This document shows positions 2,021 through 23,335 of a DNA stretch of 64,000 nucleotides, piece after piece (positions within the stretch are counted from its first letter, which is position 1; each line of letters opens with the position of its first letter). Origin of the DNA: Choricystis sp. odSpoLacu1 (Eukaryota; Chlorophyta; Trebouxiophyceae); assembly GCA_958009055.1 (NCBI GenBank), contig OY253652.1, positions 372,001-436,000 on the forward strand. The letters are read 5' to 3'. The position numbers and the translations under genes are program-made. The notes beneath the pieces are model-generated. The model did no database searches. It was given only the letters and a program-made list of their open reading frames with translations, and was not told the origin of the DNA.

Positions 2021-2160
2021 ATCTTTGCGCATGGGGCACTGACATGATCTGTGAGGTCTTACCGAGATATGTCGTTTGCTGATTGAAAACTAAACCAAGC
2101 CCCACCCGAATAACACCTCTGTGTTGTCGGGAAATTTTTCTTCGTCCCCAAAAGGGATAC
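2021..2160 (+). ncRNA. U4: U4 spliceosomal snRNA
   Basis: The RNA starts AUCUUUGCGCA, the U4 5' end that pairs with U6 (stem II). The 5' stem-loop carries the 15.5K/Snu13 k-turn, GUGAGGUCUUACCGAG (canonical AUGAGGUUUAUCCGAG). Next comes UUUGCUGAUUGAAAACU, matching the U4/U6 stem I segment UUGCUAAUUGAAAACU. A perfect central stem follows (CCCGAAUAACAC / GUGUUGUCGGG, loop CUCU), then the Sm site GAAAUUUUUCU and a terminal hairpin GUCCC-CAAAA-GGGAU. Order and spacing match U4 throughout. The 3' end is approximate. U4 carries U6 into the tri-snRNP. Identified by eye from remembered consensus; no covariance model was run. Confidence 0.92.
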
Positions 2161-2359
2161 CTTTTCAATCGAAGACAGTGGGAAATGGCGGCGTTGGCGT
2201 AGTCAGGGGGGGTTGGTGGGCCTGGCGGGTTTGCACGGAATCGCACACAACAAACGCTGAGAACTGTGATAATCAGACCCCCCAGCCCAGCTGGGCCGAG
2301 CTGGGCGCCCGGAGTGACCCTTGGCGGAAGGGGAAGCTGGAGTAGGCTGCGTTGACTTT

Positions 2360-2476
2360 GAGAGGTTGGCCTGTAGCCATGTAAAAATTGATGACGCTGC
2401 TTTTATAGCTGACTTCTCAGAAAATCCGAGAAAAAGGCGCGGGTTTTGGATGAAGAAACCAGCTGCAGCTTGGTTC
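2360..2476 (-). ncRNA. U5: U5 spliceosomal snRNA
   Basis: Read on the minus strand. Nested stems GCUGC/GCAGC, AGCUG/CAGCU, CUUC/GAAG, AAAA/UUUU and CCG/CGG close an 11-nt loop CGCCUUUUUCU (2429-2439). This is the size and sequence of U5 loop I (canonical CGCCUUUUACU), except that the near-invariant A is U. The outer strand reads CUGGUUUCUUCA, as in other U5 RNAs. After the stem come the Sm site CAAUUUUUAC (2381-2390) and the 3' hairpin UGGC-UACAG-GCCA. U5 loop I holds the exons during both splicing steps. The U5 3' end faces the U4 3' end about 200 bp away. Both ends are accurate to a few bases only. Confidence 0.85.
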
Positions 2477-2524
2477 GAGGATGAGAAGTGGAAAGAATAA
2501 AAACAACTGGGTCGATGTTAGGTG

Positions 2525-2538
2525 ATGTAATCGCTATG
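2525..2538 (-). promoter_or_regulatory. snRNA upstream element of U5 (CATAG at about -63)
   Basis: CATAGCGATTACAT on the minus strand, about 63 bp before the U5 5' end, then CACCTAACATCG. It matches the U4 element in core and in the order of the following TTAC, TAAC and ATCG blocks. A T-rich TTTTTATTC stretch lies near -30, where plant Pol II snRNA genes carry a TATA box. Confidence 0.5.
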
Positions 2539-2915
2539 TTTTCGTTTTTTTGGTGAGAGAGGGAGAAGTCGGTCGCTGCCCCCCTGCCGCGTCGCGGCAG
2601 CAGGGGCAGCAGGCCACACAAAAAAGCATGTGTTTGTGTCCTGATTGCATCGTGCTGGGGCAGAGTGTGGGAGGAGGGAACGACTCTGTTTTTTCAGGCA
2701 GAAATTGGGGTAAACAATGACCCCCACCGCCGCCGAGCCGCAGGGAGGGAGGGGCGGCAAAGGCAAGGATGGGCTTGGGGGGAGGGAGGGTGGTGGTCGT
2801 GCGTTGTGGATAGGGAGCGTAAAAATGGTTGATAAAAAAACACGCGTCGAAACCGACGCGGACCGAGACGGGCGCGTTTGGCGCCTTTGTCCCCGTCGAT
2901 GACGTGCCCGCCGAC
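2539..2915. other. Spacer upstream of U5 and of the small ORF
   Basis: About 375 bp. It holds short frames in all directions but none with family resemblance. It contains purine-rich GGGAGG runs and the presumed promoter of the ORF at 2916. Confidence 0.4.
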
Positions 2916-3185
2916 ATGGTGATTGGTGGTGTCGACCACTACCTGCTGGCGGTGCCGATGGCGCGCCCCGTGATCCGGGACGCCGTCGTGCGCGAGGGGT
3001 GGCCCGCCCTCGAGCGCGCGGCCGAGGCCGCGCGCGCCGGGGGGGCGCCGCTGGCAGTGCCGGCGCCGTTGGAGGTGGCCTACGACGCTGAACTGGCGGC
3101 CGCGGAGGCGGCCGCCAACCAGGCGGAGTCGATCGCTGACGAGGAGGACGAGGGGGAGGAGGACGTAGTTTGTGTGGCGGGATAG
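2916..3185 (+). CDS. Small hypothetical protein with acidic tail
   Basis: From the ATG at 2916 this frame encodes 89 residues. It begins MVIGGVDHYLLAVPMARPV, has an Ala/Glu-rich helical middle, and ends in the acidic run DEEDEGEEDVV before TAG. The frame is open further upstream without an ATG, and the upstream residues (AFVPVDDVPAD) also look coding, so an unseen 5' exon may supply the true start. I do not recognise the family. Support is codon use, length and plausible composition only. Confidence 0.35.
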   Translation: MVIGGVDHYLLAVPMARPVIRDAVVREGWPALERAAEAARAGGAPLAVPAPLEVAYDAELAAAEAAANQAESIADEEDEGEEDVVCVAG

Positions 3186-3981
3186 GGCGATGAGGAGGAT
3201 TGGGCGTACTTTGCTGCTTTAGAGGCGGCGCTGGAGCGTTCAGATTCAGAGTGATTGCCTGTGTGTGCGTGTGTGTCTGTGTGTGTGTGAAAACGGACGA
3301 ACCCTGCTCTTTTTGTGTAGGAGAGAGGGAGGGAGGGAGAGAGTGTGTGTTGCATAATGACGAAAACTATTTTTTCCCCACCACCGCCCCCCACTTGCTT
3401 CTCCTGCTGCGATGGCGGCGTCAAGGGGGCTAGAGTGAGCGTGTGTATGTGTGCCTGTGTTAGAGAAAAAATCACGCCTTTTGGGTGTTTTGGGCGGGCG
3501 GAGAGAAGAGCAGAGAGGGGAGAGAGTTGCTGGGTGTAGGAGGCAAAAAGAAAAAAAAAAACGCGCCGCCGCCGCCTCCACTCTCACTCTCCTCCTTCCA
3601 GCCCGCCGGCCCCATCCTGGCCGGCACATCAGCCTCTCTATCCACACCAGCAGCATGGAGCTAGCCTTGGCGGCGGCGGCCGCGCCGACGCAAAGCTGGG
3701 AAATCGGCGCCGGCGCCGGCGCCTGTGCGCCCGCCCCAGTGCCTGCTTCTGCGTCAAACACGGGGCGCTCACCCCAGCGCCGGACGCTGCACCGGGCCAG
3801 ACTCACAGCTGAAGCAGCGTGGCTCACATAGCGCCAACCGCCACTTGTTCGCGCGCGTGTGCGTCGAGTTGGGCGTGGCTCTCGTCACAACTCGTTTTCT
3901 AAAGTTTGTAGATTCTCGATTAAAACCTCGAGCCCCCCCTTTCCAAGCTCCAAACACAGCAGCACACTCTCCACCGCAGTC
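3186..3981. other. Intergenic stretch before NAA40
   Basis: About 800 bp with no recognised gene. It holds a short TG-rich microsatellite near 3257-3290, an oligo-A run near 3549 and a GCC-rich patch near 3670-3730. A 59-residue frame from the ATG at 3655 (MELALAAAAAPTQSWEIG) has no family resemblance and I do not call it. Confidence 0.45.
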
Positions 3982-5056
3982 ATGGCGCCGTCCGCGAAAG
4001 ATCGGAAGCAGCGGCGCAAGGAGGTGAGAGGGCCAACCGACGCGCCGTTTTTTGAATCCCTTCGCGCTCCCCCCCGTCCACGCCCACGCTCCCTCCCCCC
4101 CACCACACACACACCAGGAAGCGGCCGCCCTGGCCCAAGCCCAGCAGCTGGTCAACCGGTTGAACGAGGTGAGAGGGTGTTGGTGAGGAGGGCGCGCGCA
4201 TCGAAGCCCGATGCGAAATGCTGCAACCTCCCTCTCCTCTCTCACACGCGTCACACTCCACACACACAGCAACCCGACATCTTCGCCGACTTGCCCGCCT
4301 TCCGCGCCTACGCCCGCCGCGGCCTGGACGTGGAGCTGTCGTTTGCCAATGCAGCGGACTTGAGTGCTGCGGACGCGAAAGCCGTGTTTGATCTGTGCAA
4401 GGTAAGGATGGATGGGGGTCCTGGCCTGCTGGTTGGTGCAGGCGGTGGGATGGGTCGGACAGCGGGGGCGATCACGGCAGGAGAAGGCACACCCTCACTC
4501 TCCCCTCCCCACCCCCCCACCCCACCTCTCTCAGCTCAACATGGAGGCCGCCTACAACACCGCCTGGGGCTGGTCCGACGCCGCCAAGCGGGAGGAGTTG
4601 ACGGCGGACGCTGCCCGCTTCATCCTCGTGCGCCCGCGCGTTGCGGACGGCACACCCCCTGCCTCCCCCCCTCCTCCCCCTCTGGCCTACGCGCACTTCC
4701 GCTACGAACTGGCCGACCACCCCGCCACAGACGCCGTGCTGTATGTCTACGAAATCCAGCTGGCGGCGAGTGTGCAACGTGCCGGCCTCGGCCGCTTCTT
4801 GATGCAGCTCCTCGAACTCACCGCCCGCCGCGCAGGCTTAGCCGCCATCACGCTCACCGTGCAAGACATCAATGAGAGTGCGCGCGCGCTGTACGCGGGG
4901 CTGGGTTATGTGAAGGATGAAGGGTCGCCGGAAGTGGGGGATGAGGAAGGGTTTCACATTTTGATCAAGAAGCTGCCGCCCAAGGTGGCGCAGCCGGCGG
5001 CGGTGGGCAAGGCCGCGGTGGCGAGCGTGGCCACTGTGGTGGCCAAGTGCTTGTGA
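3982..5056 (+). CDS. NAA40: N-alpha-acetyltransferase 40 (NatD)
   Basis: Four exons, all phase 0: 3982-4023, 4118-4168, 4270-4401 and 4535-5056, giving 248 residues (human about 237). The basic N-terminus MAPSAKDRKQRRKE leads into a GNAT fold. Exon 4 has the acetyl-CoA loop VQRAGLGRFLMQLLE, an RxxGxG-type motif, followed by LTVQDINESARALYAGLGY and EEGFHILIKKLP, as in NAA40. NatD acetylates the N-terminal Ser of histones H4 and H2A co-translationally. Three introns use GTGAG or GTAAG donors and C-rich tracts with CAG acceptors. A Pro-rich loop (residues ~110-115) is inserted in the catalytic domain. Activity is inferred from the family. Confidence 0.9.
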
Positions 5057-5547
5057 AGAGGGAAATGGTGGTGGCGGTGATGGGGGAAGGAGGCGACAAC
5101 GCGACGAAACCAACAAAAAATCCACACTCACCAAAAAAATGCAATGAACTCTGCTCACTGTTGATTTCAATTTCTAGGAGGCAGCGCAAACGAGGGAGCC
5201 ATGCTTTGGCGTGCCCTGCGGACGGCAAAACCAGGGCAACCACAAACCACGATACAGTGCGCCGACCGAAAAAACGACGGCCCACTCTCTTTCCCCCTTC
5301 TTTCTGGCGCCCCGCTTTTCCCTCTCCCTCCCCTCCCCGCACCGCGTCTCGGGAGGGGGCCCCCACACATACCCTCTCACGGCCGCCGTGCCCTGGGAGG
5401 GAGTGGGACGGCTGGAGAGGCCTCCCCGCCCCCCCACATCGGGCAACGGCCGCTCTCATTTGAGGGCGACCGCTCGTTTCAAACGCCCCGCCCCGGGCCT
5501 GCGGCCAGGCGTCTCTCCTGACCGCGCACCCGGGGACCTTAACCAAC
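5057..5547. other. Intergenic stretch without a gene
   Basis: About 490 bp, C- and purine-rich. Long overlapping frames on both strands reflect GC bias only; none resembles a protein family. It must hold the NAA40 terminator and the promoter of the next gene. Confidence 0.45.
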
Positions 5548-8199
5548 ATGCCCACCTCCAACGCGGACGAGGTGGCCCTGCCCGACGGCGCGCCGTCTGA
5601 GGGCGCGGGCGAGCACGGCGACGGCGGCGGCGCGAGCTACGGCAGCCCGGTGAGTGGTTGATTGGGTGGGGTGTGGGGGCGTCCCGCCTCCCATCGCGAC
5701 AAGCAGGCGCGCACGCGTGTGGCGGTCTGTCGTGACACTGTCGGAGAGGGGGAGGAGAGGAGGCGAGGAAGAGAGGAGACGCGCCGCGGGACCGCAAACC
5801 GAAAAACCGACCCCCTTTTCCCTCCCTCCCCTTCCCCCCGTCCACAGCGCATAGCCCGGTCCCAAGTCTCCACCGCCGTCTCCTTTGGCGACGCGAGGCG
5901 CCCCCCTCCCCAGGCCGCCGGGTCGGCGGCGGTGGGATCACGGTCGGGCGGTGAGTCGGCGCTGTCTGCGGCGGAAGCGGCGGGGGACGACGCCAAGCCG
6001 CCTGATGGTGAGAGTGGTGTTGGTTGGCGTGTGGTGTCAGCAGTCGTCGCGCTGTGCTTTTTTTGCTAACCTCTTTTTTCCCCTCCCACAGCCGAGGACT
6101 CATCCCTCCCCGCCGCGCGCCACCACCCCGCCTCCCCCGCGCCTCCACCAGCCGGCCCATCCTCCGCCGCCCAACCAGCAGCAGGCACGCCGGTCGCCCC
6201 CATCCTCCTTCATCCACCGCCGCCGCCGCCGCCACCCCCGCTTCCGGGGCCTGCGGCGGCGGCGGCGGCCGCGTTGTTGCAACAGCCCGCATTGGCAGCT
6301 GCCACATCCGTCCTGTCGTCCGCGTTGCGGGACGCTGCTGCGGCGGCCGCTTTACCACCGCCTCCGCTCACCGCGCTGCGTGGCACGGCCGCCAACGCCG
6401 CTGCACTCGCAGCCGCGCGCCCCTCCTCCCCTCCCGCGCCGCGCTACCCTGCCTCGCCCTCTGCGAGAGCAGGGTCCAACATGTCGCACACAGCGGCCGG
6501 ACGGTCGCGCGGCGGCGGTGGTGGTGGCCGGGGCGGCGTCACCGCCGCGCGCGGCGCCAGCGCGGCCGCGCCGCTGCCGCCCGCGGCGCGCGCTGCGGCG
6601 CCTGCCCTGCTGCCCACTCTGGTGCCGCCCCCACGCGCCCCGCCCTCTGGCCCGGCAGCCGCCATGCTGATGGATGGCGCGGCCGCGGGAGGCGGTACCC
6701 CCAGCGTGGCGGGCGGGCCGCTGCCGCCTCCGCCGCCGGCGCGGGCGGTGGCGCTGCCGCCACCACCACCACCACCCGCTGCCGTGCCCCAGCCTGCTGA
6801 CGCGCGTGGGTTGAGCCAGCACCCACCTTCGCCGTCTACGTCTGACGCGGCGGGAGCGCGTGCGCCCTCGGCAGGAGGCGGCCTTCCTCCCCTCGCGCGC
6901 CCCGCTGCCGCCCGCGTCGTTTTCGGCGGCGGTGGTGGCGGCGGCGGCGCCGGCTCCGTTGTTATGGCAGGAGGCGGAGGCCATGGGTCGGTGGGCGTCG
7001 GTGGCGGCCAAAACGCCGGCGGCAACACCTCGGCCGTGCTTGGCGGCGGTTCCAGCGACCGCCGGCCCGCCCCCCCGGGCGCCGGCTCCGTGGCGGGTGC
7101 CACCCCTCACCACCATGTGGGTGACTTTGGGGGTGGCCAGGCCGCGTCTGCGGCCGGCCTGGACCGCCGCACCCTTGCCTCCGCTGCCGTCGACGCGCCG
7201 CCAGAGAACGCGGCGTCCGCGGGCGACCCGCCCGTCGGGTCGGCGGCCGCGCCGCCTGTCTTGGCAGCAGTGCCCGTGGTGGCGCCCGCGCCCGCTGTGG
7301 CCGCGGCCGCCGCGGCCGCGCACGCGACGGCTCATGCTGCTGCCTCTGTCCACGCCACCGTTCTCTCCGAGGACGACGGCGGCTCCGGCGTGGTCACCGA
7401 CTCCAGCAGCCTGCGCCGCCGGGGCGAGGGCAGCGAAGGCAGTGGCGAGTCGGGTGGTGTGGGTGGAAGGGCGGCCGCGGCCGCACCATCACCTCCCGCC
7501 CCTCCTCTCGCCTCCCCCCTTGCTCCACCTCCCGCCGCCCCGGCCATCGCCACCATTGCTGCCAGTGGTGCCGCCGCTGGCGGCGGCGGCACCGCGTCTC
7601 CGCCCCCTCCCGCCGCGTCGCGTCGCTCTGCGCCGCCCTCCCCCCCTCGCGACGCGGCCACCCCGCCCCCCGCCACCACGCCGCGCGCCGCGTCCACGTT
7701 GGCGCCCGCGCCCCGTCCCCCCGCGGGCGCGGTGACGTCGCCCCAGCGGGCGCGTGCGGATGGTGTGGCTGCCGCCGCAGGCGACACGCCGCCTGACCAC
7801 CGGTCGGCGCGGTCGTCCGCGGCGGCTGCGCCCGTGCCACCGCCTGCCTCTGGGTCGCGTGGCACCCGCCGCTCAGCCCGCGTCGCGTCGGTGGGGGCGG
7901 CCGTGATGGCGGCCGCAGCGAGCGCGGCTGCAGCCGCAGCATCCGCGGCCACTGGCACAGTCCTCGACGCCGGCGGCCGCCGCGGCGGCCGTGCCCCGCG
8001 CGCTGTGCGCCCCCGCCCCGCCCTCACCGTCGTCATGGCGGCGGGTCTGCCCAGCGGGGCGGAGGATGGGGGCGACTCGCGCGCGCGCGCACGGGGCGGT
8101 GCTGGTGCTCCAGGCCCCAGCGCGCCGCGCACCGCTGGCGCCCGCCGCAGCGCCCGCATCAACCCGCCGGCTGCGAAGCGGCGCAAGGAGGGTGGGTGA
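5548..8199 (+). CDS. Ala/Pro/Gly-rich low-complexity protein, probably nuclear
   Basis: Three exons (5548-5649, 5848-6007, 6092-8199) join in frame to 789 residues. The protein is almost wholly low complexity: poly-Pro, poly-Ala and poly-Gly tracts separated by Ser/Thr-Pro sites, with no folded domain I can place. Two copies of the motif RRSAR[VI] stand near the C-terminus (GTRRSARVASV and GARRSARINPP), and the protein ends PPAAKRRKEGG, a likely nuclear localisation signal. The intact 2.1-kb last exon and correct junction phases argue for a real gene. Function unknown; a chromatin- or RNA-associated scaffold is a guess from composition. It lies just upstream of SPT6 on the same strand. Confidence 0.65.
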
Positions 8200-8740: not shown

Positions 8741-11700
8741 ATGGACGAGGACGCCGCTGCCGCCGCCCCCTCCTCCCCGGCGCCGCCGTCGCCGTCGCCC
8801 GAGCCGGAGGCGACGACGGCGGGCGCGCCCGTGGGCGGGCGGCTGCAGTCACCGCCGCGACGCACCGCTGGCGGGGCGCGGGTGAGTTGGAGGAGGGGAG
8901 GGGGGAGGGGCACAGCACGCCGATCCTGCCGTGGCGCGGAAGCGGGAGCTGCTCTTCTTCCTTGCTCACGCCCTCCCCACTTCACCCCCACTCACCACCC
9001 CCATGTGCAGGCCATCATCGTCGACGCTGCTGAAGAGTCGGACGACGCGGTGAGTGTGAGGGTTTGGGGTACAGAAAAAGAGGCGGCACCACACGCCGCC
9101 GCCGCCGTCACGGCACTGCTGCACGCACTGCGCAGCTGACACCCGCGCACTCGCCGTGTGTGCGTGGCGCCACTGTGACAAATGCTGCACAGTGTGGGCG
9201 GCTGGGGTTTGGAGAGAGGAGCGGGGGAGAGATCGTGCAGCAGCGACGCATTGGCTCACCTCCTCCTTCTCGCACCCACCCTCCCACAGTCCGGCGGCTC
9301 CGACGGCGAAGGCGACAGCGACGACGACAGCGAGCTGGGCTCCTTCCTGGCCGACGACGATGAAGAGGAGGACGACGGCGACGGCGACGGCGACGCCACC
9401 ACCACCAAGCGCAAGCGCAAGCGCAAGCGCCGCCGGGGCGCCGTCGACGTCAGATTGGATGACGATGACTACGACATGTTGGAGGAGAACCAGGTGGAGG
9501 GCGTGAAGCGGCCCCCCAAAGCGGGGGAACGGCGGCGCCTGCGCAAGCGTGGCGACGCGGGGGCGGCTATTGCCGTCGACGCGCCCGCCGAGCCGCAGGC
9601 GGCTGCACCCGGCGTCGCTGCCTCCAGCGCGCGCGACCTGGAGCGCCAGTTGTTTGACGATGAGGAGGAGGGCGACGACGGCGATGGCGCGGCCGCGGCC
9701 GCCGCCGCGCGCGCCACCGCCGCGCGGGCGCGCCGGTCTGAAACCCCCGACGCCTTCCGCGTGGACGATGCTTCCGATGACGACGGCCTGGGCGACTTCA
9801 TTGCCACCGACGATGACGATGAGGAGGGTGGCCAAGGTGCCACCCACCGCAGGTCGCCCCCCCTGCGCAAACAGCGCCGCCGCCGCCCCCGCGCCACGGA
9901 CGCGGTGGCCGCCGAGATCGACGCCCTGTTTGGGGCGGCAGACGTGGACGCCATGCTGGCTGCTTATGAGGCGGCGGCAGGTGGAGAGGCAGAAGGCGGG
10001 GACGCCGAGACCGCCGACCTGCGAGACACCGACTTTGACGACGTCACAGCCGCCGCCGCCTACCGCGCTGAACGGTCTGCAGGGCGGGCCGCCACGGCGG
10101 CCGCCAAGGCGGCGGCTGTCGTGGAGCCGGCGGCGTTGGAGGCGGCCATGCTGCGCCCGCAGGACGACGCTGCCTGCGCGGCCGACATCCCTGAACGCGT
10201 TCTGACGGACGACGTCCCTGAATCCGTCGCCTGTGGCGGCCCCTCCTCCGAGGCTGCGTTAGACGCCGCTGCTGCCTGGGTTGTGGCCCGCCTCTTTGCC
10301 CCCGGCGCGCCGCGCTCCCTTGCGAGCGTGCTCGTCGCGCGGGGGGTGGCCGAAGTCGACGGCCCCCCCACCGACGGCCGGGACGCCTACGACAGCGACG
10401 AACTGGCGGATGGGGCCACCGATCTGAGCCTTGGCAGGCGCGGCGTGCGCCGGCCGCGGCGCGCGGGCGGCTCGACGGAATCGCGCTGGCGCGCAGATGC
10501 CAGTGCTCAAGCCCGCCTCGTTTCTGGTGTCCGCCACCTGTTGGCCCGCATGTGGGTGGACCGGGCGGATCCGGCTGCCGTGGCGGCGCGCGACAAGGCG
10601 GCGTTGGCCGATGTTTTAGCCCTAGCTGACGCCGACGCCCCTGTCCTGACGACGCGTGACGATGCTGCCCGCCGCGCTTCCGCTGGCTGGCCCGCCTTCC
10701 CAGCCGGCACCGTCCAAGCCGCCGGCCGCCGTGTGCGCCGGTGGGACGTGCTGTGGGCGGTGGTGGATGAAGCGCGGCGGTGGGCCGCGCTCGCGCGCAG
10801 GTCGGCCGTGCGGCGGCGCGTGTACGCGGCGACTGCTGCCGCGCCGGATGCGCCGGCCGAGCTGGTGGCTGCTGCTGCGGCCGCCGTGGACACACTGGCC
10901 GGCGCCTCCTCCATGGATGAAGTGGCGGACGCGGACACTGCGTTTGAGCTGGCAAGGGCGGCGGCGGGGGCAAAAGGTGGTGGCATCACCACCTCCACTC
11001 GCGCCCCCGCGCCGCGCGCGGCGGCTGCCGTCGCCCTGTGCGCCCGCGCCGGCCTGGACGAACTGGTGGCCGGGTTTGGCATGGAGCCCGGGGTTTTGGC
11101 GGACAACGTGGCGAAAGGCTACAGGGCGGTTGACCCGACCGACGCGGCGGAAACCCCCGACGCGCTCTCCGCACGCGTCGCGGCCACCGCGCCCCCACCC
11201 TTTGACAACCCGGCCACCGCGTTGCGGGCTGCATCGGCTTTAGTCGCTGCCCGCCTGGCCGCGGAACCCGGCCTGCGCGCCCACGTGCGGCGCTATGTGG
11301 CGGCGCGTGGCGTCGTCACGACCAAACCCACGCGCGCGGGGGCGGCGTCCCCCATGCTCGACCCCTTCCACGCCTACGGCCACGTCCGCCGCCTGGAAGC
11401 CAAGCCTCTGGCCAACTTCGAGGCACGCGACCTCATGCTGCGCGTGGACGCGGCGGAGGCTGCCGGCTTGATTGACGTGACGATCACGCTGTCGCCGCGC
11501 GACGCCGACGCGCTCGAGGCCGACACCTCGGACGCCTACCTCTCCCCCGCCGCCACGCCCGCCGCCCTGGCCTGGAATGAAGCCCGGCGGGCCGTGCTGC
11601 GGGACGCGCTAGCTGTGTTGGTGCGGGGTGGTGCCGCCGCCGCGCGCCGCGCTGCGCGCGCTGCAGCCCGCGCCGTCGCGGCAGCAGAGTACGAGGCCGC

Positions 11701-14416
11701 ATTGTGGCGCCTGGCCACCCGCCCCCCCCTCGTCATCACGCGGGCGGATGATGATGGCGTGATTGATGCGCCCGTGTTTGTTGGGGCATCGCATGGCGGC
11801 GGTGGTGGCGGCGGCAACGGCACCGCGCCGCCCTCCACTGCATTTGTGGCTCTTGACGAGCGCGGCGCCCTGGACCGCGTCCTGTACACGGCCCGCCTGT
11901 CGGGCAAGCTGCGGCCGCCCCGGCCCAGGACGGCGGGGCCGGGCGGCGCTGGGCCGGGTCCGTCTGCGCTGACTGATCCGCGCACCGCCGCTGATGCCGC
12001 CTCCCTTCGCGCCTTTATCAAAGCCACCCAACCCGCCGCCATCCTGGTGGGTTGCGCCTCCTCCGACGGCGTCGCCCTGCGCGACGTGGTGGCGTCCGTG
12101 CGTGAAGACCTGCTGGAGCACGACCCTGCTTTCTTTACGCGGCACGAGGCTGGGGACGTGGCTGTGGCGTTGGTGGACGAGCGGCTGGCGAGTCTGTGGG
12201 CCGCGTCTGCGACAGCTTCTGCTGAACTGCCCGACGCCCCACCTCCTGTCCGCCGCGCTGTCGCGGTCGCCCGCCTGGGGCTGGACCCGCTGGCCGTGCT
12301 GGCATCGCTCGCAGGCCGTGGCGGCGAGATCGCTGCTCTTTCCCTGACTGACGCTCAAGCCGCTCTGGGCCGCGACGCCCTGCTGGCCTGCGCTCGCCGC
12401 GTGCTGCGCAGCGTGACGGCGCAAGTCGGGGTGGACCTCGCCAAAGCGGCCGCCGTGCCGTGGCGGGCGGCCGCGCTGGAGTATGTGCCGGGGCTGGGGC
12501 CGCGCAAGGCGGCCGCGCTCGCGCGCGCGGTTGCCGCCGCGCCCGGCGGCAAGCTGGCGTCGCGCACTGATTTGACGGGGGTGGGCGGACTGCCTGCCCG
12601 CGTGGCGGATGCGGCCGCACCCTCGCTCTACATCAAGGGGCGGCGGGCGCCCCCACTCGACGCCACGCGCATCCACCCCGACGACTACTCGCTCGCGCTG
12701 CGCGCCGCGCGCGCAGCGGCGGGGGCGGACGCCCCCGAAGTCGCGGACGCGGCCGCTGACAAGGATGTGGTTGAGAAAGCCCTGGCCAAGCCGCGCACGG
12801 TGGAGGGCGTGGATTTAGTGGCGGTGGATGAAGCGGTGTGCGCGGCCGCCGCGACGGCAGCCGCGGCAGCAGCGGCCCCCGACGACGACGACGGCGACGC
12901 CCCCCCTCCACCCCCTCCTCCCTCCCGCCTGACCACCCTCATCGATGCCTCCTTTGAGCTCATCGCCCCCGCGGGCGAGCTGCGCCCCGCCCTGGACCCG
13001 GCGGTCGCTGCGGAGGACGAGTTTTGGTTGGCTGCAGCGGCCACCCCCGCCACCCTGCGCGAGGGGCTCCCTGTGGATGTCCTCATCCAGCGCGCCGGCC
13101 AGTACGACGCCCGCGGCTCGCTTCCTGGCTTTGGAGACATCGAAGCCGTCCTGCCTGCCGACGTCGTCTCATCCTCCGGCCCCGTCGACCCACGCGAACA
13201 CCTGCGGCGCGGCGATGTCGTCGCTGCCCGCGTGACGCGCGTCTCCCCCTCTGAACGCTGCGTCTACGTCACCACCGCGTCCGCCGCCCTCAACGATGCG
13301 GCCCATTGGGAGGCCGACCTGTGCGGCTCCGACCCGCACTACGTGCTGGCGGCTGATGCGGAGAAAGCGGCGCGGCCGAAAGTCTCGCGCACCGCGTTTG
13401 TGGATCGCCGCATCGACCACCCCAACTTTGCCAACGTGTCGCGGGACGACGCGGCGGTGCGGTTGTCGGACCCAGGGATTGAGGTGGGCCAGCCCAACGC
13501 GGCCCTGTTGCGCCCGTCCCCCGCGGGCCCCTACCGCCTGTGCCTCAGCGTCAAGCTGTTCGACGGCCCCGGCACGGGCCCCATCATCCTGCACCGCGAT
13601 GTCCACGAGTCGCGCACGACGGCCGCCTCCGCCACCCGTCGCGCGGGCGCCCACCTGCAGCTGAAGCCTCCGCTCACCGTGGGTGTCGGGGCGGCAGGGA
13701 TGACGGACGCGTTTGATGACGTGGATGAGTTGCTCGCGCGGTATGTCGACCCGCTCGCCGCCTGCGCGCGCGACGTCGCCCGCCACCGCCGCTACGTGGA
13801 CGACGGCGACTGGGACGCGGTGAAAGCGCGGCTGCTGGCCCAGTTTGAGGCGGGGGGGCGGAGGACGCCCGCGTACTGTGTGGCGGCAGACTCTGCCCGC
13901 CCCGGCTTCTGCTACGTGGGCGCCGTCCTCCCCACCCGCTCCGCCACGCCGCGCCGCGAACACTTTGCGCTGACCCCGCGCGGCGTGTACTACCGGTCGC
14001 GGTTGTTCAAAACCCTGGAGCGCGCGCTGGCCGAGTTCAAGCGGGACCCGCAGGGCGTGCGGGATGCTGGGGAGGAGCGCGGGCGCGGGCGCGGCGACGC
14101 GACGCCGCTGCACGGGGATGATGCAGCGGGGGCCGCGGACGCGTTTTTGGGCGGCCTTGGTGCTGGTGGCGGCACCCCCGCCCCCGTGGCTGCAGCCGGT
14201 GGCTGGGGCGCACCCCCACCGCCGCCAGAGAGTGCGTGGCCGCCCGCGCCCCCCGCCGCCGCGGGCGGTGTGGCGGCGGCCGCCGCGATCGCGGCGCGCT
14301 ACGCGGCGGAGGCTGCAGCCCGCGGCTGGGCGCAGCAGCAGCAGGTGCCTGCGGGCGCCAGCTATGCTGACGTGCCGCCGCCGCCGCCGCCGCCGGATGG
14401 TGGGTGGAGGCGGTGA
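8741..14416 (+). CDS. SPT6: Transcription elongation factor / histone chaperone SPT6
   Basis: Three exons (8741-8881, 9011-9049, 9290-14416) give about 1768 residues, close to plant and animal SPT6. Domains in order: acidic D/E-rich N-terminus with a KRKRKRKRRR nuclear signal (~60-110); helix-turn-helix and RNase H-like (YqgF) region (~300-1000); helix-hairpin-helix EYVPGLGPRKAAALARA (~1123); HPDDYSLALRAA segment (~1190); S1 domain around GDVVAARVTRVS (~1363); tandem SH2 domains (~1437-1643), the first with HPNFANVSRDDA, the second with REHFALTPRGVYYRSRLF. SPT6 travels with phosphorylated RNA polymerase II and reassembles nucleosomes. The tail is Ala/Pro/Gly-rich. Family assignment is firm; edges are estimates. 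Confidence 0.95.
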
Positions 14417-15716: not shown

Positions 15717-17502
15717 ATGACCACCACTGCCTCCCTCCACCCGCCCGCGGCGCCGCTCCCCGCCGCGGCCGCCGCGGCGCGGGACGCGGGCAACGCGGCG
15801 ATGGCGGCTGGCGATGCGACCAATGCGTTACAGGCGTATGGCCAAGCGCTGGACGTGGTTGGATGGAAACAAGGGAAGGAGGAGGGTGGGGTGGCGGCCG
15901 GCGCTGACGCACCCACCACCGCTGCGCGCGCCCTGCTGCTGTGCAACAGGGCGGCCGCCCTTATGGAGTTGAAACGGTGGAGCGAGGTAAGAGAAAGGGG
16001 CGGGATAGGGGTTGAAGAAAGGGGCGTTGTGTGTGGGAGAGAGCCGACCCTTTCCCCCCTTTCCACAGGCCACCACCGACGCCCGTGCCGCCACCCGCCT
16101 GGCCCCGTCCTGGCTTCGCCCCTGGCTGCGCCTGGTGCGTGCCCTGGACAGGGGTGGGGATGTGGCAGGGGCGGCGGCTGCGGGGAGGGCCGGCACCGCC
16201 GCGACGCGGGCGACGCCGACGGCTCGTGCGGCGCTTCGAGACGCGGTGGACGCGGCCGCCGCCGCGGGCGCAGCTCGCGGCAATTATGGCGGCTTTGATG
16301 GGGACGTGCTGGTGGTGCGGCCAGCCGCGGCCGGGGAGGAGTGGTTGGGGGGGGCGGCGCCGCAGGAGGAGGGTGAGGAGGACGATGACGACGGAGACGG
16401 CCGCCCCGCGCTGCCGTGCTGGGACGCCGTCGCGGCCAGCGAGAAAGTGCTGGCTCTGGCGAAAGGTGAGTGGTGTGGAGGGTGGGGTGTGGACGGAGAG
16501 AGAGTCGGGCAGTTACCGACGTTTTCTCCTTAACCTCCAGCCCCACGCCGCACCTCCTTCTGCTCCATCCACGCCGCCCTGGCGTCCTGCCGCGATGGAG
16601 ACATCATTGTGTTGCTTCCTGGCATTCACAACGGACTGGGCACATCAGCCTGTGTGACCAAGCGGGTCGTGATTGTGGGCGGGGAAGCGAGAGCGCTAAC
16701 CTCGCCCCTTCCCACGCCGCCCGCCACCCTGGATTTCAGGGGCAATGCGCCTGATCTGCGGTTTGAGAGGGTGGCGGCTGTGGTGAGCGTGTCCATTGAT
16801 GCGACTGGATGGCGCGAAGCGGTGCGGGTTGATGGGCCGCCGTCGGTGACGGTGTCGCTGGCCGACTGCACGATCACAGCGTCTGGAGACGATGGTGTGC
16901 TAGTGGCGGGTGGTGCGACGGCCACACTTACCCGGTGTGCTGTCAAGGCGGGGCGGCACGGCGTCGTGGTGGCGCAGCGTGGCAGTGCTGCCTTGCACGC
17001 CACAATTCTCAAGTCCTGCGGGGGATCCGGCTGTGTGGCCACCCAGGATGGGTCTGTCACGCTGTCCCACAACACCATCATCACCGACTGCGGCGCAGAC
17101 GGCGTGCGCGTGAGTGGGCGCGGGCGCGTGGAGGTGGCCGCCACCCGCGTCGCGCGCTGCTCTGGCCCCGCGCTCGACGTCAGCAGCGACGGCCAAGCAA
17201 CAGTCGGCGCCGGCTGTGAGTTCACAAGCTGCGCTGGCGGCGTGTGGGCGTGGGGTGGAGGGCAGGCGGCGGTCGGCGCGCGCGCGCGCGTCGACGGTGG
17301 GGAGACTTTTGCTCTCCTATCGCACGGATACGCGAGCCTGGTTGTTGATGCTGCTGCCATTGTCTCGGGCGCAGTGTCCGGTGCTGCCGCATCGACTGCA
17401 GCCTCCGCCTGCTCCTCCTGGATGCGGCCACCAGGGTACGTGGGCCCCCCGCCAGAGGCCGGCCCGTTTCGGTGGGACGGCGACGACGTGAGGGACGCGT
17501 GA
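15717..17502 (+). CDS. TPR plus right-handed parallel beta-helix protein
   Basis: Three exons (15717-15986, 16069-16465, 16541-17502) give 542 residues. The N-terminal ~130 residues are TPR-like: ARDAGNAAMAAGDATNALQAY, then LLLCNRAAALMELKRWSEA and DARAATRLAPSWLRPWLR. A central acidic linker EEGEEDDDDGDG follows. Residues ~240-500 are short repeated strands of the pectate-lyase/FBXO11 type: VSLADCTITASGDDGVLV, TLTRCAVKAGRHGVVVA, LHATILKSCGGSGCVA, TLSHNTIITDCGADGVRV. Similar beta-helices occur in FBXO11 and SHCBP1 and in polysaccharide lyases; no signal peptide is seen, so an intracellular binding role is more likely. No catalytic motif recognised. Confidence 0.8.
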
Positions 17503-17608
17503 GAGAGAGAGTTTTTTTGATTTGAATGAAAATGAAACGCACAGATTGATTGTTGCAGAGCACAGGGGAGCAAAAGAAAGGAGGAAACACACAAAACGCT
17601 CTTCCCTC

Positions 17609-17887
17609 TCAAGCCTCGACCTGCTCGCGCAGGCGGCGGATCGTCGACCGCACCGTCACCGCCGACCCCGTGTGCAGCGTGAACGCGCCCCCGGCGGACG
17701 TCTTGCGGCAGCCGCGGCACGTCCAGATGCCGACGGCGGCGCGGCGGACGGCGTGTTTGCCGCAGTGTGCGCACAGGTAGCGCGCGTGCTGGGACACGTC
17801 CATCTTCTTGACCAGCTTGCGCAGGGACGCGCCGTAGCGGGTGCCGTACTTACCGACAATGCCGACCTTTTTGGTGCGTTTGGACAT
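17609..17887 (-). CDS. RPL37A: 60S ribosomal protein eL43 (L37a)
   Basis: Single exon of 92 residues, the family's usual length. It starts [20 protein letters not shown] and contains the four-Cys zinc ribbon CAHC-x14-CRGC (residues ~39-60), then [20 protein letters not shown]. It is a component of the cytosolic large subunit. Many plant homologues have an intron after the first codon; here the coding part is uninterrupted, though a 5'UTR intron is possible because a GTACGT donor-like site lies near 18430. Assignment is certain. Confidence 0.97.
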
Positions 17888-18590
17888 GGTGTGTGGGTGG
17901 TGGGGGGGAGGAAAAACCTGTGTTGAGGGCGGGTGAGGGAGGACGATGAGCGAGTCGGGGGCGCGGGGCGGTGTGGTTTTGCGGGATCGGCACGCGGTCT
18001 GACGCAGCATCGGGCGGATGGCCCGCTGAGTTGAAGTACAGAGCACGCCCGCGCGCGTTGCGGGGGGGCGGGGGGCAGAAGAGAAGCGGGAGTGGTGGGC
18101 AGGGCGCACGTGCTGCGGCGGCGGCCGATCGCGAGCGCGGGTGCGCGTCGCCAAAGCGCGGCCTCTCCCCCGCACGCTCCGCCGCCTGCGACCCCAGGCT
18201 GAAGCCTGGTGCTAGGTGCGCGAGCGTGGATGGGGAGTGTGGACGGGAGTGTGTGCAGGGCAGCACACACAGGCAGCCGGCGCGGGCCGCGGCCGGGGGG
18301 CCGGCTCCGCGCGCGCGGTGTGGGCGGGCTGCCACCCGCGCCCGGGACTCGCCGACGCCCGATGCGTGGACAGCGTGCTATCACACGGCTTGTGGGAGCG
18401 GGGAGAAGGAGGCAGGGGGCGCGACACGTACCTGGACCGCCGAGGAAGAGAGTTGTGTGAGAGCGAGCCGGCGGCGGCGGCGTTTTTTCCTCCCAACCTC
18501 CACAACTCTCGCCAATCCCTCTCTGCTTCCCGCGGGGCGGCAAGCCCACGCCGACGCCGCCTCTCTTCTACGCGGGCGTCTTGACACAAA
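17888..18590. other. Divergent spacer between eL43 and PRP40
   Basis: About 700 bp, extremely GC-rich, between two divergent starts. It should contain both promoters. Long open frames on both strands here look like composition effects; none resembles a known protein. Confidence 0.45.
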
Positions 18591-20282
18591 ATGTCCGCCC
18601 CACCGGCCTCCCCACCACCCGGGGCGGCGGCGCCCCTGCCGCCGCCCCCTCCCCTGCCCCACCACCCCCCAGCCTTCACGCCTGGGCCCGGTTGGCGCCC
18701 GCCGCCCGGGTTTGGGGGGCCTCCGTTTGGGGGTGGTGGGCCGTCAGGGCCCCCGCCCTTTGCTGGTGGCCCGCCCCGCCCGCCACTTCCGCGCCCTGGC
18801 CCACCTCCCTCTCCCTGGACCCAGCACACGCGGGACGGCCGCCCCTACTGGTACAACGCGGTGACTAAAGCGTCGTTGTGGACCAAGCCTGAGGAGTTGA
18901 TGACGCCGGACGAGCGCGCTGAAAAGGCGTCGCGCTGGCGCGCGGTCACTCGCCCCGCCGACGGCCGGGTCTACTACGTCAACAGCGACACCAAGGAGAC
19001 GACGTGGACGTTGCCGGCTGCGTTGGCTGAGGCGTGGGCCAAGGAGCGGGCGGCTGTTGTGCCACCGCCCGCACTCGCTCCACCCCCCACCACTTTTGCG
19101 ACACGTGCCGACGTCGTCACCGCCTTTGGTACCGCGTTGATTGCTGCTGGAGTGCGCCCTGATGGCTCCTGGGAGGCCGCCCGGGCAGCAGTCGCCGGCC
19201 ACCCCGCTTTCGCTGCCCTGCGTGGCGAGGGCGACCGGCGCGCTGCCTTCGACGCCTGGGCTCTGGCCGCCCGCACCGTTGCCATGGCTGCCCGCAAACA
19301 AGCTGCCGAGGATGAGAAGAAGGCGGCAATCGAGGCGGCGGGGGAGGCGGTGGAGAGGTGTGCGGGGCTGGGGGTCAGTGCCCCGCCGCGCCGCCTGCCC
19401 GCGTCCGCGCCCAAAGACGCCATCATTGCGGCGGGCGGAGAAGCTCTGATCACCCTGTTGCCTGCCGACCGTGAAACCGCCATCACAATGTGGCGCTCGC
19501 GCGCCCGCACGGGCGAAACCGCCGACGCGGCCGCCGCGCGCGCTGAAGCCGCCGCCCCGCTCGCAACCCTCTACGCCTCCCACCCTGGCGTCCGCCGAGG
19601 CACCCCCTGGCGCGACACGGTGGCCGTGCTGACCGGGGATGCCGCCTTTGAGGCGGCGCGGCCGTTGGTGAGGCTGGAAGCGTTTATTCTGCACCAGCGC
19701 GAGTGCCAGCGCAAGGCGCAGTCCGAAGACGCTGCCGCCAACGCCGCCAAGTTAAGGGCTGAGCGGCGCGTGCGGGACGCGTTCCGCGCTTTGCTGGCTG
19801 AAGCTGTCGCCGATGGCCGCCTCACGCCGCGCTCCAGGTGGCGCTCATTCCGTCTCACCATCGAGGGCCACCCCGCCCTGGCCGCCCTGGACGCCGCCCC
19901 GAGGGGGGCGCGCGCCGCAGACTTGTTCCTGGACGCGGTGGACGTGCTGGATGCTGCGTATGATGGGGATCGGAGCGCGTTGTTGGCCGCGGCCAAGGCG
20001 GGCGGGGTGGATGCTGAGACAGCGGCGGGGGGGGAGGGTGCGGCTGCGTTCGATAAGGCGGCTGCGGCTTTGGGTGGCGCAGCAGCAGCTGCTCCACCAG
20101 CGACAAGGGCGCTTGTGTTGGCAGAGTTGGCTGCCGGTGGCCGCCCCCCGAGGTCGACGCGGAGGCGTGGTGGCGGCAAAACCAAACACGGTGCCAACGC
20201 GTCCCGGTCAGTGACGCCGGACGACGCCAAGCGGAGGAGGGTGAGGTCGGTGAGTGAGGAGCCGGAGGAGGGCCAGTTGTGA
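18591..20282 (+). CDS. PRPF40: Pre-mRNA-processing factor PRP40 homologue
   Basis: Single exon of 563 residues. A Pro-rich N-terminus (1-74) is followed by two WW domains: PWTQHTRDGRPYWYNAVTK (~75-102) and SRWRAVTRPADGRVYYVNSD (~115-142). FF-type helical repeats follow (from ~165), for example VVTAFGTALIAAGV with HPAFAALRGEGDRRAAFDAW, and GRLTPRSRWRSFRLTIEGHP. The C-terminus is basic with Ser-Pro sites (SVTPDDAKRRRVRSVSEEPE). PRP40 is a U1 snRNP-associated factor that bridges the 5' splice site to branch-point proteins and binds the RNA polymerase II CTD through WW/FF domains. A duplicated piece of its 3' end occurs downstream. A U1 RNA gene lies about 2.2 kb beyond its stop. Confidence 0.92.
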   Translation: MSAPPASPPPGAAAPLPPPPPLPHHPPAFTPGPGWRPPPGFGGPPFGGGGPSGPPPFAGGPPRPPLPRPGPPPSPWTQHTRDGRPYWYNAVTKASLWTKPEELMTPDERAEKASRWRAVTRPADGRVYYVNSDTKETTWTLPAALAEAWAKERAAVVPPPALAPPPTTFATRADVVTAFGTALIAAGVRPDGSWEAARAAVAGHPAFAALRGEGDRRAAFDAWALAARTVAMAARKQAAEDEKKAAIEAAGEAVERCAGLGVSAPPRRLPASAPKDAIIAAGGEALITLLPADRETAITMWRSRARTGETADAAAARAEAAAPLATLYASHPGVRRGTPWRDTVAVLTGDAAFEAARPLVRLEAFILHQRECQRKAQSEDAAANAAKLRAERRVRDAFRALLAEAVADGRLTPRSRWRSFRLTIEGHPALAALDAAPRGARAADLFLDAVDVLDAAYDGDRSALLAAAKAGGVDAETAAGGEGAAAFDKAAAALGGAAAAAPPATRALVLAELAAGGRPPRSTRRRGGGKTKHGANASRSVTPDDAKRRRVRSVSEEPEEGQL

Positions 20283-20296
20283 AGAGAGAGGGGTAG

Positions 20297-20660
20297 AAGG
20301 GAGGGAGGGAGGGCTGTCTGTGTGAGACGAAGAAACGCAAAAAACAATGAAACAAATACGCCCGCCTTCTCTGCCACCCTCTCCTCCTCCTCCTCCCTCC
20401 CTTCCTGGCCGCCCCCCGGTGATGATGGGAGGGGGTATAGGGTTAGGGTTGGGTAGGCAGGAGTAGAAACGCAGAAAAGAAAACATCACGATCACCCCCT
20501 TGTGCGTTGCCGCCGCCACCTTTGCCGCCATTCTCAACGCCCTGACCGCCACGGGGACCGGATGAAGAGGATCGGGTTAGGGTTAAGTAGGCAAGGAAGA
20601 AACGCAGGCAGTGAAGGTCGGTGACTACTGACGACGCCAAGCGGGGTGGAGGGCGAGGAG
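20297..20660 (+). repeat. Degenerate ~134-bp tandem repeat derived from the PRP40 3' end
   Basis: The word AGAAACGCA recurs at 20331, 20465 and 20598. GGGTTAGGGTT recurs at 20440 and 20574. Both give a period of about 134 bp. The last copy runs into a diverged copy of the PRP40 C-terminal coding sequence: GACGACGCCAAGCGG is found at ~20220 in the gene and at ~20630 in the repeat. The TTAGGG-like words are only two units each. The whole 480-bp spacer before DNAJC17 is this repeat plus the DNAJC17 promoter. Confidence 0.6.
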
Positions 20661-20763
20661 TTGAAGCAAAACAAAAACCAAACACAACCCAATCGCGGGC
20701 GGCGCCCGCACGCGCGCTGTGCGGGGCGCGTCTCCTCCCACTCCCTCATCTTTAACCACAACC

Positions 20764-21777
20764 ATGGACCCACTCCAACCCACCGCGTATGACATGCTGG
20801 GGCTGGCGCCGCCCACGGCCGCCGGCACGTCCCCTTCCGACGCCGACATTCGGCGCGCGTTTCGCAAGCTCGCGCTCATCAAGCACCCCGACAAACAGCC
20901 CGACAATCCACGGGCTGCTGCCGAGTTTGATGAGATTCAGAAGGCTTATGCGCTGTTGACTGATGCTGAGGCGAAGGCGGCACTCGACGGCTTGCTGGCC
21001 GCGCGCACGGCGGCGGCGGCAAGAGACGCAGAGAGGACGGACAAAAGGCGCAGGATGGCGGCTGACCTGGACGCAAGGGAGCGGGCTGGCGTGATTAGAC
21101 GAAGCGCCACCGCCGACCGACCCGCGGCTGACGACCCGGTGGCGGCCGCGCGGGCGCGGTTGGCGGCAGAGTTGGAGCGGCTGAGGAAGAAGAGCGAGAG
21201 CGCGGCCGCGGCGGCTGCTGCTGCCGCACCACCTCCACCACCACCACCTCCTCCTCTCGACGACGAACTGAACCGCACCGTCAAGCTGTCGTGGGCGCTG
21301 GCGGATGGAGATTACAGTGCTGCTGAGCTGACTGCTGCTCTCGCCGCCGTCCCCGCCACCCCACGCGACATCATTCTCCGTGCCTCCAAAAAACGGGGCA
21401 CCGGGTCTGCTGTCGCAGTGCTAGCCAGTGTGGCGGACGCGGTCGCTGCGGAGGCGGCCCCGCTAAGCGGGGTGCATGGGCCGCTACTGGTTGTGCCGCT
21501 GCGCAAAGGCGGGGGTGTGGCTGGCCGGGATGAGGGTGTGGCCGCTGTCAAAGCGGGTCCTGCACCTTCAGCCGTGCCTGCGCCCTTGAGGCGGCCTGTG
21601 TCGGGCGGGCGGCCCGTGTTTGCGGCGGGGGCGGGGGGGGCGGGCGCGGGCGTGCCGGCGCCAGCACCATTCCCCAGCTTTGCGTCGGCGCCAAGGCCGC
21701 CGCCCCCTCCTCCTGATGCTGCGGACGCAGAGGCCGACGTGCTGGCCAGGATGCGAGCGGCAGGCAGGAAGGAGTAG
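20764..21777 (+). CDS. DNAJC17: DNAJC17-type J-protein with RRM (spliceosome-associated)
   Basis: Single exon of 337 residues. The J domain occupies residues 1-75 with AFRKLALIKHPDKQPDN; the HPD motif is at 41-43. A helical coiled segment (~85-150: RRRMAADLDARERAGVIRRS, then LERLRKKSES) is followed by a poly-Pro run and an RRM-like domain beginning LNRTVKLSWALADGDYSAAE (~172 on). This order is diagnostic of DNAJC17 (yeast Cwc23, fission yeast Cwf23), a co-chaperone of spliceosome assembly or disassembly. The C-terminus is Gly/Pro/Ala-rich. Stop TAG. Confidence 0.9.
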   Translation: MDPLQPTAYDMLGLAPPTAAGTSPSDADIRRAFRKLALIKHPDKQPDNPRAAAEFDEIQKAYALLTDAEAKAALDGLLAARTAAAARDAERTDKRRRMAADLDARERAGVIRRSATADRPAADDPVAAARARLAAELERLRKKSESAAAAAAAAAPPPPPPPPPLDDELNRTVKLSWALADGDYSAAELTAALAAVPATPRDIILRASKKRGTGSAVAVLASVADAVAAEAAPLSGVHGPLLVVPLRKGGGVAGRDEGVAAVKAGPAPSAVPAPLRRPVSGGRPVFAAGAGGAGAGVPAPAPFPSFASAPRPPPPPPDAADAEADVLARMRAAGRKE

Positions 21778-21856
21778 TGGGGGTGCGGGGGCGCGGGCAG
21801 TTGCGGGCGCCCTCGATCCGTCTCTGTAAAACATGTTCAAGTGCGCCAGTTTTCTC

Positions 21857-22400
21857 TCATGCAAACACAGTGGTGGTGCTGGCGGCCGTTAGGCGCGGTG
21901 AGTGGGGAAGAAGGATGGGGCCTCTGCAATGGCGCGTGTCGTGGCACGCTCGAAACGCACGCCGAAACAAACTCACCCCCCGTGGCCTCCAAGCGACAGC
22001 TGAGGCGTGTCCACCGCATTGTGGGTTGTGAAGGCGCACTGAGAAAGGGGGGCGGAGGATGCGGTCTTGTCTACAAGGGGGAGAGGGTGGGAGGCCGCGT
22101 CCACAGGGGAGCGGACGGGCTGCGGCCGAAACGTGGAAGGGCGCCCCCCCCCTTTAAACTGAACATCAAGCTCCTCCAGCGCGGTCAGGCGGTGCGGCTG
22201 CTAGGTGCCCGCGTCCAGGGCGGCGCGCAGGAAGAAGGGGTCTTCCGTCGCGACCGCCTCTGACGTCGCCGCATAGTGAACAAGTTTCAGAGCTCGCAGC
22301 CGCCCCAGCGCCGCGTCGCTCGACCGACGGGCACAAGGGTGATGGAGCCGTGCCAAATGCCGCTACGTGACCAGCGACGCGGCGTGTGGGTGTTGTGGGG
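21857..22400 (-). pseudogene. Decayed LRR-like gene (in-frame TAG, upstream frameshift)
   Basis: On the minus strand a frame reads ALGRLRALKLVHYAATSEAV, then EDPFFLRAALDAGT, a TAG (about 22202), then HRLTALEELDVQFKGGGRP and VDTPQLSLGGHGG. A GTGAGT donor and TTGCAG acceptor then join in phase to PILLPHSPRLTAASTTTVFA and TGA at 21857. The LRALKLV and LTALEELDV blocks resemble leucine-rich repeats. Upstream, SGIWHGSITLVPVG lies in another frame without room for an intron. Read together this suggests a gene with one nonsense codon and one frameshift. GC-rich DNA gives many protein-like frames, so this is tentative. Confidence 0.35.
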
Positions 22401-22499
22401 TGTGGCTGTGTGGGGGTGGTGGACCCGCGCGGCCCGCCGCGGCCGACGCCGACTCTCACCAGCCTATCTTTCACTCGCGCGCGTCTGTTTTTGATTCAA

Positions 22500-22666
22500 A
22501 AGGGGGTGGGCAAGCGCGCGAACGCGACGAGCCCCAATCAAAGATTATACGGTCTGCGCCGCCCCTTGGGACGTGCAGCGCAGGGTGAGGGGACCAAGTG
22601 CAATGTCCACCCACCCAACGGACGGGGCGCCTCCTTGATCGCGCACCGCCCCCGCCAGGTAAGTGC
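22500..22666 (-). ncRNA. U1: U1 spliceosomal snRNA
   Basis: Read on the minus strand. The 5' end GCACUUACCUGGC holds the 5' splice-site recognition sequence ACUUACCUG in full. Stem-loop I has the U1-70K-type loop GAUCAAGGAG (canonical GAUCACGAAG). Stem-loop II has the exact U1A-binding loop start AUUGCAC between GGAC and GUCC. Stem III is closed by CUGCGC/GCGCAG. A single-stranded GUAUAAUCUUUGAUUGG stands where the Sm site AUAAUUUGUGG is expected, and stem IV has the UUCG tetraloop in GCGUUCGCGC. All four stems occur in the correct order over about 167 nt. Most donors in this window are GUGAG, so position +3 pairs with U1 by G-U wobble. Confidence 0.9.
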
Positions 22667-22718
22667 TTTGAAAAGAGGCGCCAAAATGGTTTCATACTAA
22701 GAAGCAAAAATTGAGGCA

Positions 22719-22732
22719 AGGTTAAAGATATG
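22719..22732 (-). promoter_or_regulatory. snRNA upstream element of U1 (CATATC at -66)
   Basis: CATATCTTTAACCT on the minus strand, 66 bp before the U1 5' end. It shares the CATA core and following TTAACC-like block with the elements of U4 and U5, at nearly the same distance. Confidence 0.5.
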
Positions 22733-23100
22733 GGGGGTGGTGCACGGGTCAAGGTGTGGAGAGCAGTCAGGAGGGGGTTGACGTCCGTCGCCAACTGCCG
22801 CCCAAACAATCGATCCAGCCGATCTGCAGCCCGATCCCATTCCCCCATAAACGACGAAAGGGCACGATTCGAGATCATCCACGGCGAAAATTGGAGATGA
22901 TCAAGACGGCGGCCCCTCTGGAGAGGGACCACCTGAAACCAGTCGTCGCAATTCGGACAAATCTTTCCCCCCGCGCCACGCGTTGGTTTCACCGTCGACT
23001 CCCTGGTCCACCTCCGCGTTATTTGTACAGGCTGTTTAGGTGCTTCTAGCAAGATTGGGGGATTGTGAGACGGTGGTCACTCGGGGTGAGATTACCACGG

Positions 23101-23114
23101 CATATCAGCTTTCA
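23101..23114 (+). promoter_or_regulatory. snRNA upstream element of U2 (CATATC at -65)
   Basis: CATATCAGCTTTCA begins 65 bp before the U2 5' end, the same offset as in U1 and close to U4 and U5. A T-rich stretch with GTTTTATTTTG follows near -30, a possible TATA-like position. Confidence 0.5.
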
Positions 23115-23165
23115 CTTTTAACTTTTTTTTGTTTTATTTTGTTCGTCGCCTCCTCCTTCAACTTT

Positions 23166-23335
23166 CAACCGTCTCAGCTTTTTGGCTTAGATCAATTGTA
23201 GTAAAAGTTCTAGTTTCTTTGACAAGAAACTGCGGGCCCACTCGGGCCCGCAACTTATGTCAAATTAATTTCTCACGGGGGTGAGAACCAAAGGCGTGCT
23301 TGCACGTCGGTCTTCACACGCGTGCTGGTGTGCCT
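23166..23335 (+). ncRNA. U2: U2 spliceosomal snRNA (divergent)
   Basis: The 5' part reads CUUUUUGGCUUAGAUCAAUU then GUAGUA (23198-23203), the branch-point recognition sequence, 32 nt from the 5' end as in other U2 RNAs (canonical CUUUUGGCUAAGAUCAAGUGUAGUA context). Stem I (CUCAGC/GCUUAG) is present. Stem IIa is AGUUUCUU-UGAC-AAGAAACU (23212-23231). Stem IIb is a 9-bp perfect hairpin UGCGGGCCC-ACUC-GGGCCCGCA (23231-23252). AACUUAUGUCAAAUUAAUUU follows where AAUAUAUUAAAUGGAUUUUU is expected, then hairpin UUCUCAC-GGGG-GUGAGAA. The Sm site is weak (AAUUAAUUUCU instead of AUUUUUG), so this could be a variant or decaying copy. The 3' end is approximate. Confidence 0.83.

Follow-up and report, generated by a model that had tools for sequence, protein, structure and literature searches.

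Does a compact algal genome keep its genes for the major spliceosomal small nuclear RNAs (snRNAs) as a single set, and what could hold such a set in one place? The question is raised by a 64-kb stretch of the green alga Choricystis sp. odSpoLacu1 (contig OY253652.1, C4:372001-436000; the whole stretch is called the window here), in which an initial annotation had placed genes for U1, U2, U4 and U5 in two pairs within about 21 kb. Our analysis indicates that this is very probably the complete detected set of major snRNA genes of the RNA polymerase II (Pol II) type, one gene for each RNA: U4 and U5 form a convergent pair and, 20 kb away, U1 and U2 form a divergent one, with probable snRNA-type promoters and probable transcript ends at 3' boxes. 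The parts are ordinary and the grouping is unusual, the chance proximity of two pairs being its main rival.

Gene identities and arrangement

Rfam models placed all four RNAs with the types, strands and pairing that had been claimed. U4 (+) and U5 (-) converge across a gap of 205 nt, U1 (-) and U2 (+) diverge across 499 nt, and 20,036 nt lie between the two pairs. The extent of the locus needed a small correction, as the claimed end at 23335 falls 30 bases short of the end of the U2 model at 23365. In window coordinates, the features are the following:

2021..2157, + strand: U4 snRNA gene (RF00015, 90.8 bits against a gathering score of 46, E=5.2e-19)
2162..2178, + strand: 3' box of U4, TTTTCAATCGAAGACAG (pattern match C4:374162-374178)
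2347..2362, - strand: variant 3' box of U5, CTCAAAGTCAACGCAG (does not fit the 3'-box pattern; 13 of 18 letters as in the U2 box)
2363..2470, - strand: likely U5 snRNA gene, with loop GCCUUUUUC and Sm-type site AAUUUUU (RF00020, 39.1 bits against a cut-off of 40)
22485..22501, - strand: 3' box of U1, TTTTGAATCAAAAACAG (pattern match C4:394485-394501)
22507..22666, - strand: U1 snRNA gene, with ACUUACCUG near its 5' end (RF00003, 94.0 bits against a gathering score of 69.5, E=3.3e-22)
22667..23165, no strand: U1-U2 intergenic region, 499 nt, in which both promoters presumably lie (each modelled start is preceded, at 20-36 nt, by an AT-rich patch)
23166..23365, + strand: U2 snRNA gene (RF00004, 103.0 bits against a gathering score of 46, E=1.1e-19)
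23368..23385, + strand: 3' box of U2, TTTTCAAAGTCAAAACAG (pattern match C4:395368-395385)

Exactly three matches in the window exceed their gathering cut-offs, those of U2, U1 and U4. All other Rfam families, U6 included, remain below their cut-offs throughout the 64 kb, which agrees with the earlier statement that the window holds no U6. U5 (E=0.0047) stays 0.9 bits under its own. When bases 1-30000 were searched at E values up to 5, U5 ranked fourth among 27 matches; the remaining 23, of which 22 are to microRNA families and one is to sR53, all lie below their own cut-offs. The initial annotation had named two or more types below threshold, or many better copies elsewhere, as grounds for giving it up; the model and BLAST searches of window and genome found one type just below threshold and no better copies.

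In U1, ACUUACCUG is aligned where ACUUACCU is expected. U2 keeps the branch-pairing GUAGUA intact, with deviating flanks (AAUUGUAGUAAAAGUUCU vs AAGUGUAGUAUCUGUUCU in the model) and a weak Sm-type site, UUUCUCA, where the model shows UUUUUgg. In the fourth RNA, an Sm-type site is aligned after the U5 main stem, and a pattern combining the U5 loop with the Sm site matches only this gene in the genome (its reversed control has 1 match). With a score under the cut-off but the only model match in the genome, the RNA of 2363-2470 is strictly U5-like, and U5 is its likely identity. Fold z-scores against 200 mononucleotide shuffles are -1.5 for U4, -2.9 for U5, -1.5 for U1 and -4.5 for U2.

Copy number in the assembly

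The assembly comprises 14,593,115 bases in 19 contigs. Covariance searches of all of it yielded one match per type: U2 (23 of 23 candidates scored), U1 (41 of 187 first-look candidates scored), U4 (41 of 216) and, at E values up to 10, U5 (46 of 199). A joint BLAST query with the four genes gave four matches, all to themselves. U6 has one strong match of 90.7 bits on another contig (C7) and a second, weak one of 14.4 bits, under the cut-off (47 of 295 candidates scored). As there is one detected copy of each type and U6 lies elsewhere, every detected Pol II-type major snRNA gene falls within 21.3 kb, and the earlier suggestion that a compact genome has its set here complete, or nearly so, holds for the genes detected. 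The minor-spliceosome U12 gave no genome match with its Rfam model (42 of 219 candidates scored).

The four single-detected genes are closer together than chance would give. By analytic approximation, the chance that four random points in 14.6 Mb span no more than 21,345 bases is 1.3e-8, and for any four of five types it is 6.3e-8.

Pairing with U6

The U4 and U2 genes can be set against the strong U6 match. U4/U6 stem II forms 14 base pairs at -22.8 kcal/mol, a value reached by 1 of 1000 shuffles, and the two U4/U6 stems combined reach -30.8, with 19 of 1000 shuffles as low. U2/U6 helix II has 6 base pairs (6 of 1000 shuffles as low), formed by CGUCUC in U2 and GAGACG in U6. The human strands are CGCUUC and GAAGCG; compared with these, the algal helix would be a case of two matched changes.

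3' boxes and probable promoters

Downstream of U4, U1 and U2, 2-5 nt past the modelled 3' ends, we found the common sequence TTTTSAAN2-4AARACAG. The pattern was composed after the genes had been inspected. It has five matches in the genome, three of them at U1, U2 and U4, while its reversed control has two. Of the other two matches, one (L007) matches nothing in Rfam at E values up to 1, and one (L011, on C18) lies near a tRNA. U5 carries a variant, in which the 18-mer begins 1 nt past the gene end, compared with 5-7 nt in the other three genes. At each of the widths 10, 14 and 18, the top downstream motif shared by the genes scores one letter above the best of 30 shuffles.

Upstream, an AT-rich patch lies at -36 to -20 in all four Pol II-type genes, with AT fractions at -36 to -24 of 0.58 for U4, 0.83 for U5, 0.75 for U1 and 0.83 for U2. 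The window has a GC content of 69.2%, and 12-mers with an AT fraction of at least 0.58 make up 8.1% of it, or 31% locally; the local rate gives 0.009 for four genes. A SNAPC3 homologue is encoded on another contig (C6); it scores 57 bits against a cut-off of 23.8 and aligns to positions 103-198 of the 199-position profile. The U6 gene terminates in a T run.

From these sequence features we infer that the four genes are expressed and transcribed by Pol II, each probably from its own snRNA-type promoter with a TATA-like patch near -30, and probably with the small nuclear RNA-activating protein complex (SNAPc). The transcripts would probably be ended at the common 3' box, cut by a complex of the Integrator or DSP1 type. 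In Arabidopsis, snRNA 3' ends are made by a DSP1 complex that works with CPSF73-I and relies on the 3' box to recognise the cleavage site (PMC5079582). U6 would probably be transcribed by polymerase III from its separate contig.

Neighbouring genes

Three protein genes between the two pairs concern us here:

9182-14416, + strand: SPT6-like gene
18591-20282, + strand: gene for a WW/FF protein, PRP40-like (best solved-structure matches PRP40 and PRPF40A)
20719-21777, + strand: DnaJ protein gene, between the PRP40-like gene and U1

PRP40 is a protein of the U1 small nuclear ribonucleoprotein (snRNP), and the WW/FF protein, judged by its structural matches, is likely a U1 snRNP-associated factor. 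Its gene lies 2.2 kb from U1, with the DnaJ gene intervening; this is curious, but a single case shows nothing. Beyond U2, a HisIE-like protein (23611-24819, -) has its best named matches in green algae, for example Chlamydomonas leiostraca, Micractinium and Elliptochloris, at 51-57% over about half of the query, and a metagenome protein reaches 84% over half of it (both among the best 120 of 1448 matches). Elsewhere in the window, a myosin gene is apparently split by an intron of about 80 nt (40454-40533, -), read by eye. Its ends are GTGAGT...CAG, so splicing is probably in use.

Alternative explanations

Several results weigh against a complete single-copy set with common signals. Candidates were scored in part for U1, U4 and U5, in the proportions given above. 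Moreover, U3 small nucleolar RNA, which is expected to exist, gave no genome match with its Rfam model although 28 of 28 candidates were scored; absence in these searches is therefore no proof, as divergent RNAs can escape them. Against U6, U4/U6 stem I alone and U2/U6 helix I alone do no better than shuffles (214 and 378 of 1000, respectively). Within 150 nt upstream, no shared ungapped motif of width 10, 14 or 18 beats 30 shuffles, and the plant upstream sequence element has no match above shuffles in any of the five genes, U6 included. Our promoter claim is therefore restricted to the AT-rich patch, whose position was selected from 28 windows after looking. The score of U5 is also low, and its loop GCCUUUUUC differs from the Rfam loop GCCUUUUAC by one A-to-U change in a 9-nt sequence that a Euglena study terms invariant (PMC2784804). 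The gene could thus be a decayed or divergent copy, the working U5 being absent from the assembly or missed by searches in which 46 of 199 candidates were scored. We consider this very improbable: the 39.1 bits against 40 and the loop change speak for it, but the RNA has an Sm-type site, a 3' box variant close past its end and a fold z-score of -2.9, and it is the sole genome match by both model and pattern.

The proximity of the two pairs is more difficult to interpret. The chance figures above were computed post hoc, after the grouping had been noticed, and if the pairs are taken as units, two units fall within 20 kb with a chance of 2.7e-3, which is not extreme for such a finding. It is thus a serious possibility, close to an even one, that rearrangement in a small genome happened to bring two old snRNA pairs near each other, and that only the pairing is meaningful. 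The SPT6-like, PRP40-like and DnaJ protein genes that intervene, and the different pair compositions of other lineages, are consistent with this; against it stands the fact that all four detected Pol II-type genes take part, with none of those detected left out. The same full set, together with the common 3' box, would fit a single snRNA transcription domain that takes the place of Cajal-body gene clustering in linear form and is kept by selection for shared factors. Human snRNA loci do gather at Cajal bodies; when these are taken apart, the gene clusters are disrupted and U sn/snoRNA gene expression is suppressed (PMC4802181). But the pairs are separated by 20 kb holding other genes, and an upstream motif common to the genes did not emerge above shuffles, so we regard a single domain as rather unlikely. 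It is tempting to go further and propose that the whole Pol II snRNA output has been cut to one gene per RNA, with all four brought into one chromosomal domain under selection, a linear locus doing by position what Cajal bodies do in three dimensions in larger genomes; this broader proposal is doubtful.

Returning to the reading that we prefer, one detected gene for each Pol II-type RNA in two close pairs, the tight grouping would probably be retained local gene linkage. The two close pairs may share open chromatin; that they lie within 20 kb of each other may be an accident, or they may make up one snRNA transcription domain.

Comparison with known systems

The initial annotation had called such a mixed grouping unusual on the grounds that snRNA genes are usually scattered or kept in single-type arrays. 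This was too strong, since mixed linkage is known in Arabidopsis, Drosophila, Euglena and hake. Drosophila is reported to have four snRNA clusters (PMC545797), in hake the U1 clusters map together with those of U2 (PMC4696792), and in Euglena U3 and U5 are linked twelve times in convergent orientation (PMC2784804). The Euglena pairs resemble U4-U5 of the alga as a convergent pair of small-RNA genes with a short intergenic spacer; they differ in being multi-copy, in pairing U3 with U5 and in belonging to a distant lineage. Ostreococcus tauri is comparable as a green alga with a compact genome of about 13 Mb; U1, U2, U5 and U6 were annotated there, and U4 was found later in a newer assembly (PMC7671301). 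Among the titles and abstract openings listed, which made up most of the literature covered, with few full texts and little from subscription journals, no single-copy U1-U2-U4-U5 grouping is described.

Public contigs provide a further parallel. A scan with a U2 pattern matched five stretches from four prokaryote contigs and none of the viral contigs; four of the five stretches hold U2 by Rfam, U1 is also found on two of the four contigs, and neither U4 nor U5 exceeds its Rfam cut-off in these stretches. In JAOZOU010000036.1, a contig of a metagenome-assembled genome (L013, match region 1-1441), U2 (-) and U1 (+) are divergent and 199 nt apart, as a U1-U2 pair like that of the alga. It differs in that 5S and histone stem-loops adjoin and that the contig, 5.6 kb long, is filed under a bacterial bin. 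In another bacterial-bin contig (L015, 1-1690), U2 and U1 lie 1.3 kb apart. These eukaryotic U1 and U2 genes, with 5S in the former contig, are probably contamination of bacterial bins, and they set a precedent for U1-U2 linkage. Since pairing recurs in other lineages, what sets the alga apart is one detected gene per type with all four types at one locus; mixed snRNA pairing itself is known.

The fullest comparison is with Arabidopsis, where U1, U2, U4 and U5 each have 11-18 copies and where the U1-U4 clusters number seven, beside a single U2-U5 cluster (PMC545797). Different Pol II snRNA types are adjacent there too, at 180-300 nt (U1-U4) and less than 200 nt (U2-U5), and a termination signal, CAN3-10AGTNNAA, lies downstream (PMC545797). 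The 3' box of the alga fits this signal only in part: compared by eye, the five fixed letters of AGTNNAA are matched 5/5 in U2 and 4/5 in each of U1, U4 and U5, and the same inspection revealed no CA at the required distance in U2 or U4. The plant genes are multi-copy (PMC545797), with U1 upstream of U4 and with U2-U5 called a tandem array, whereas the alga has one detected copy of each, different partners (U4-U5 and U1-U2), convergent and divergent orientations, and all four genes in one 21-kb stretch. This provides a minimal gene set for the study of promoter and 3'-box use. With one gene per major snRNA and four of them in 21 kb, simple edits could test whether position affects a balanced snRNP supply, a question that redundancy masks where the types are multi-copy, as in Arabidopsis.

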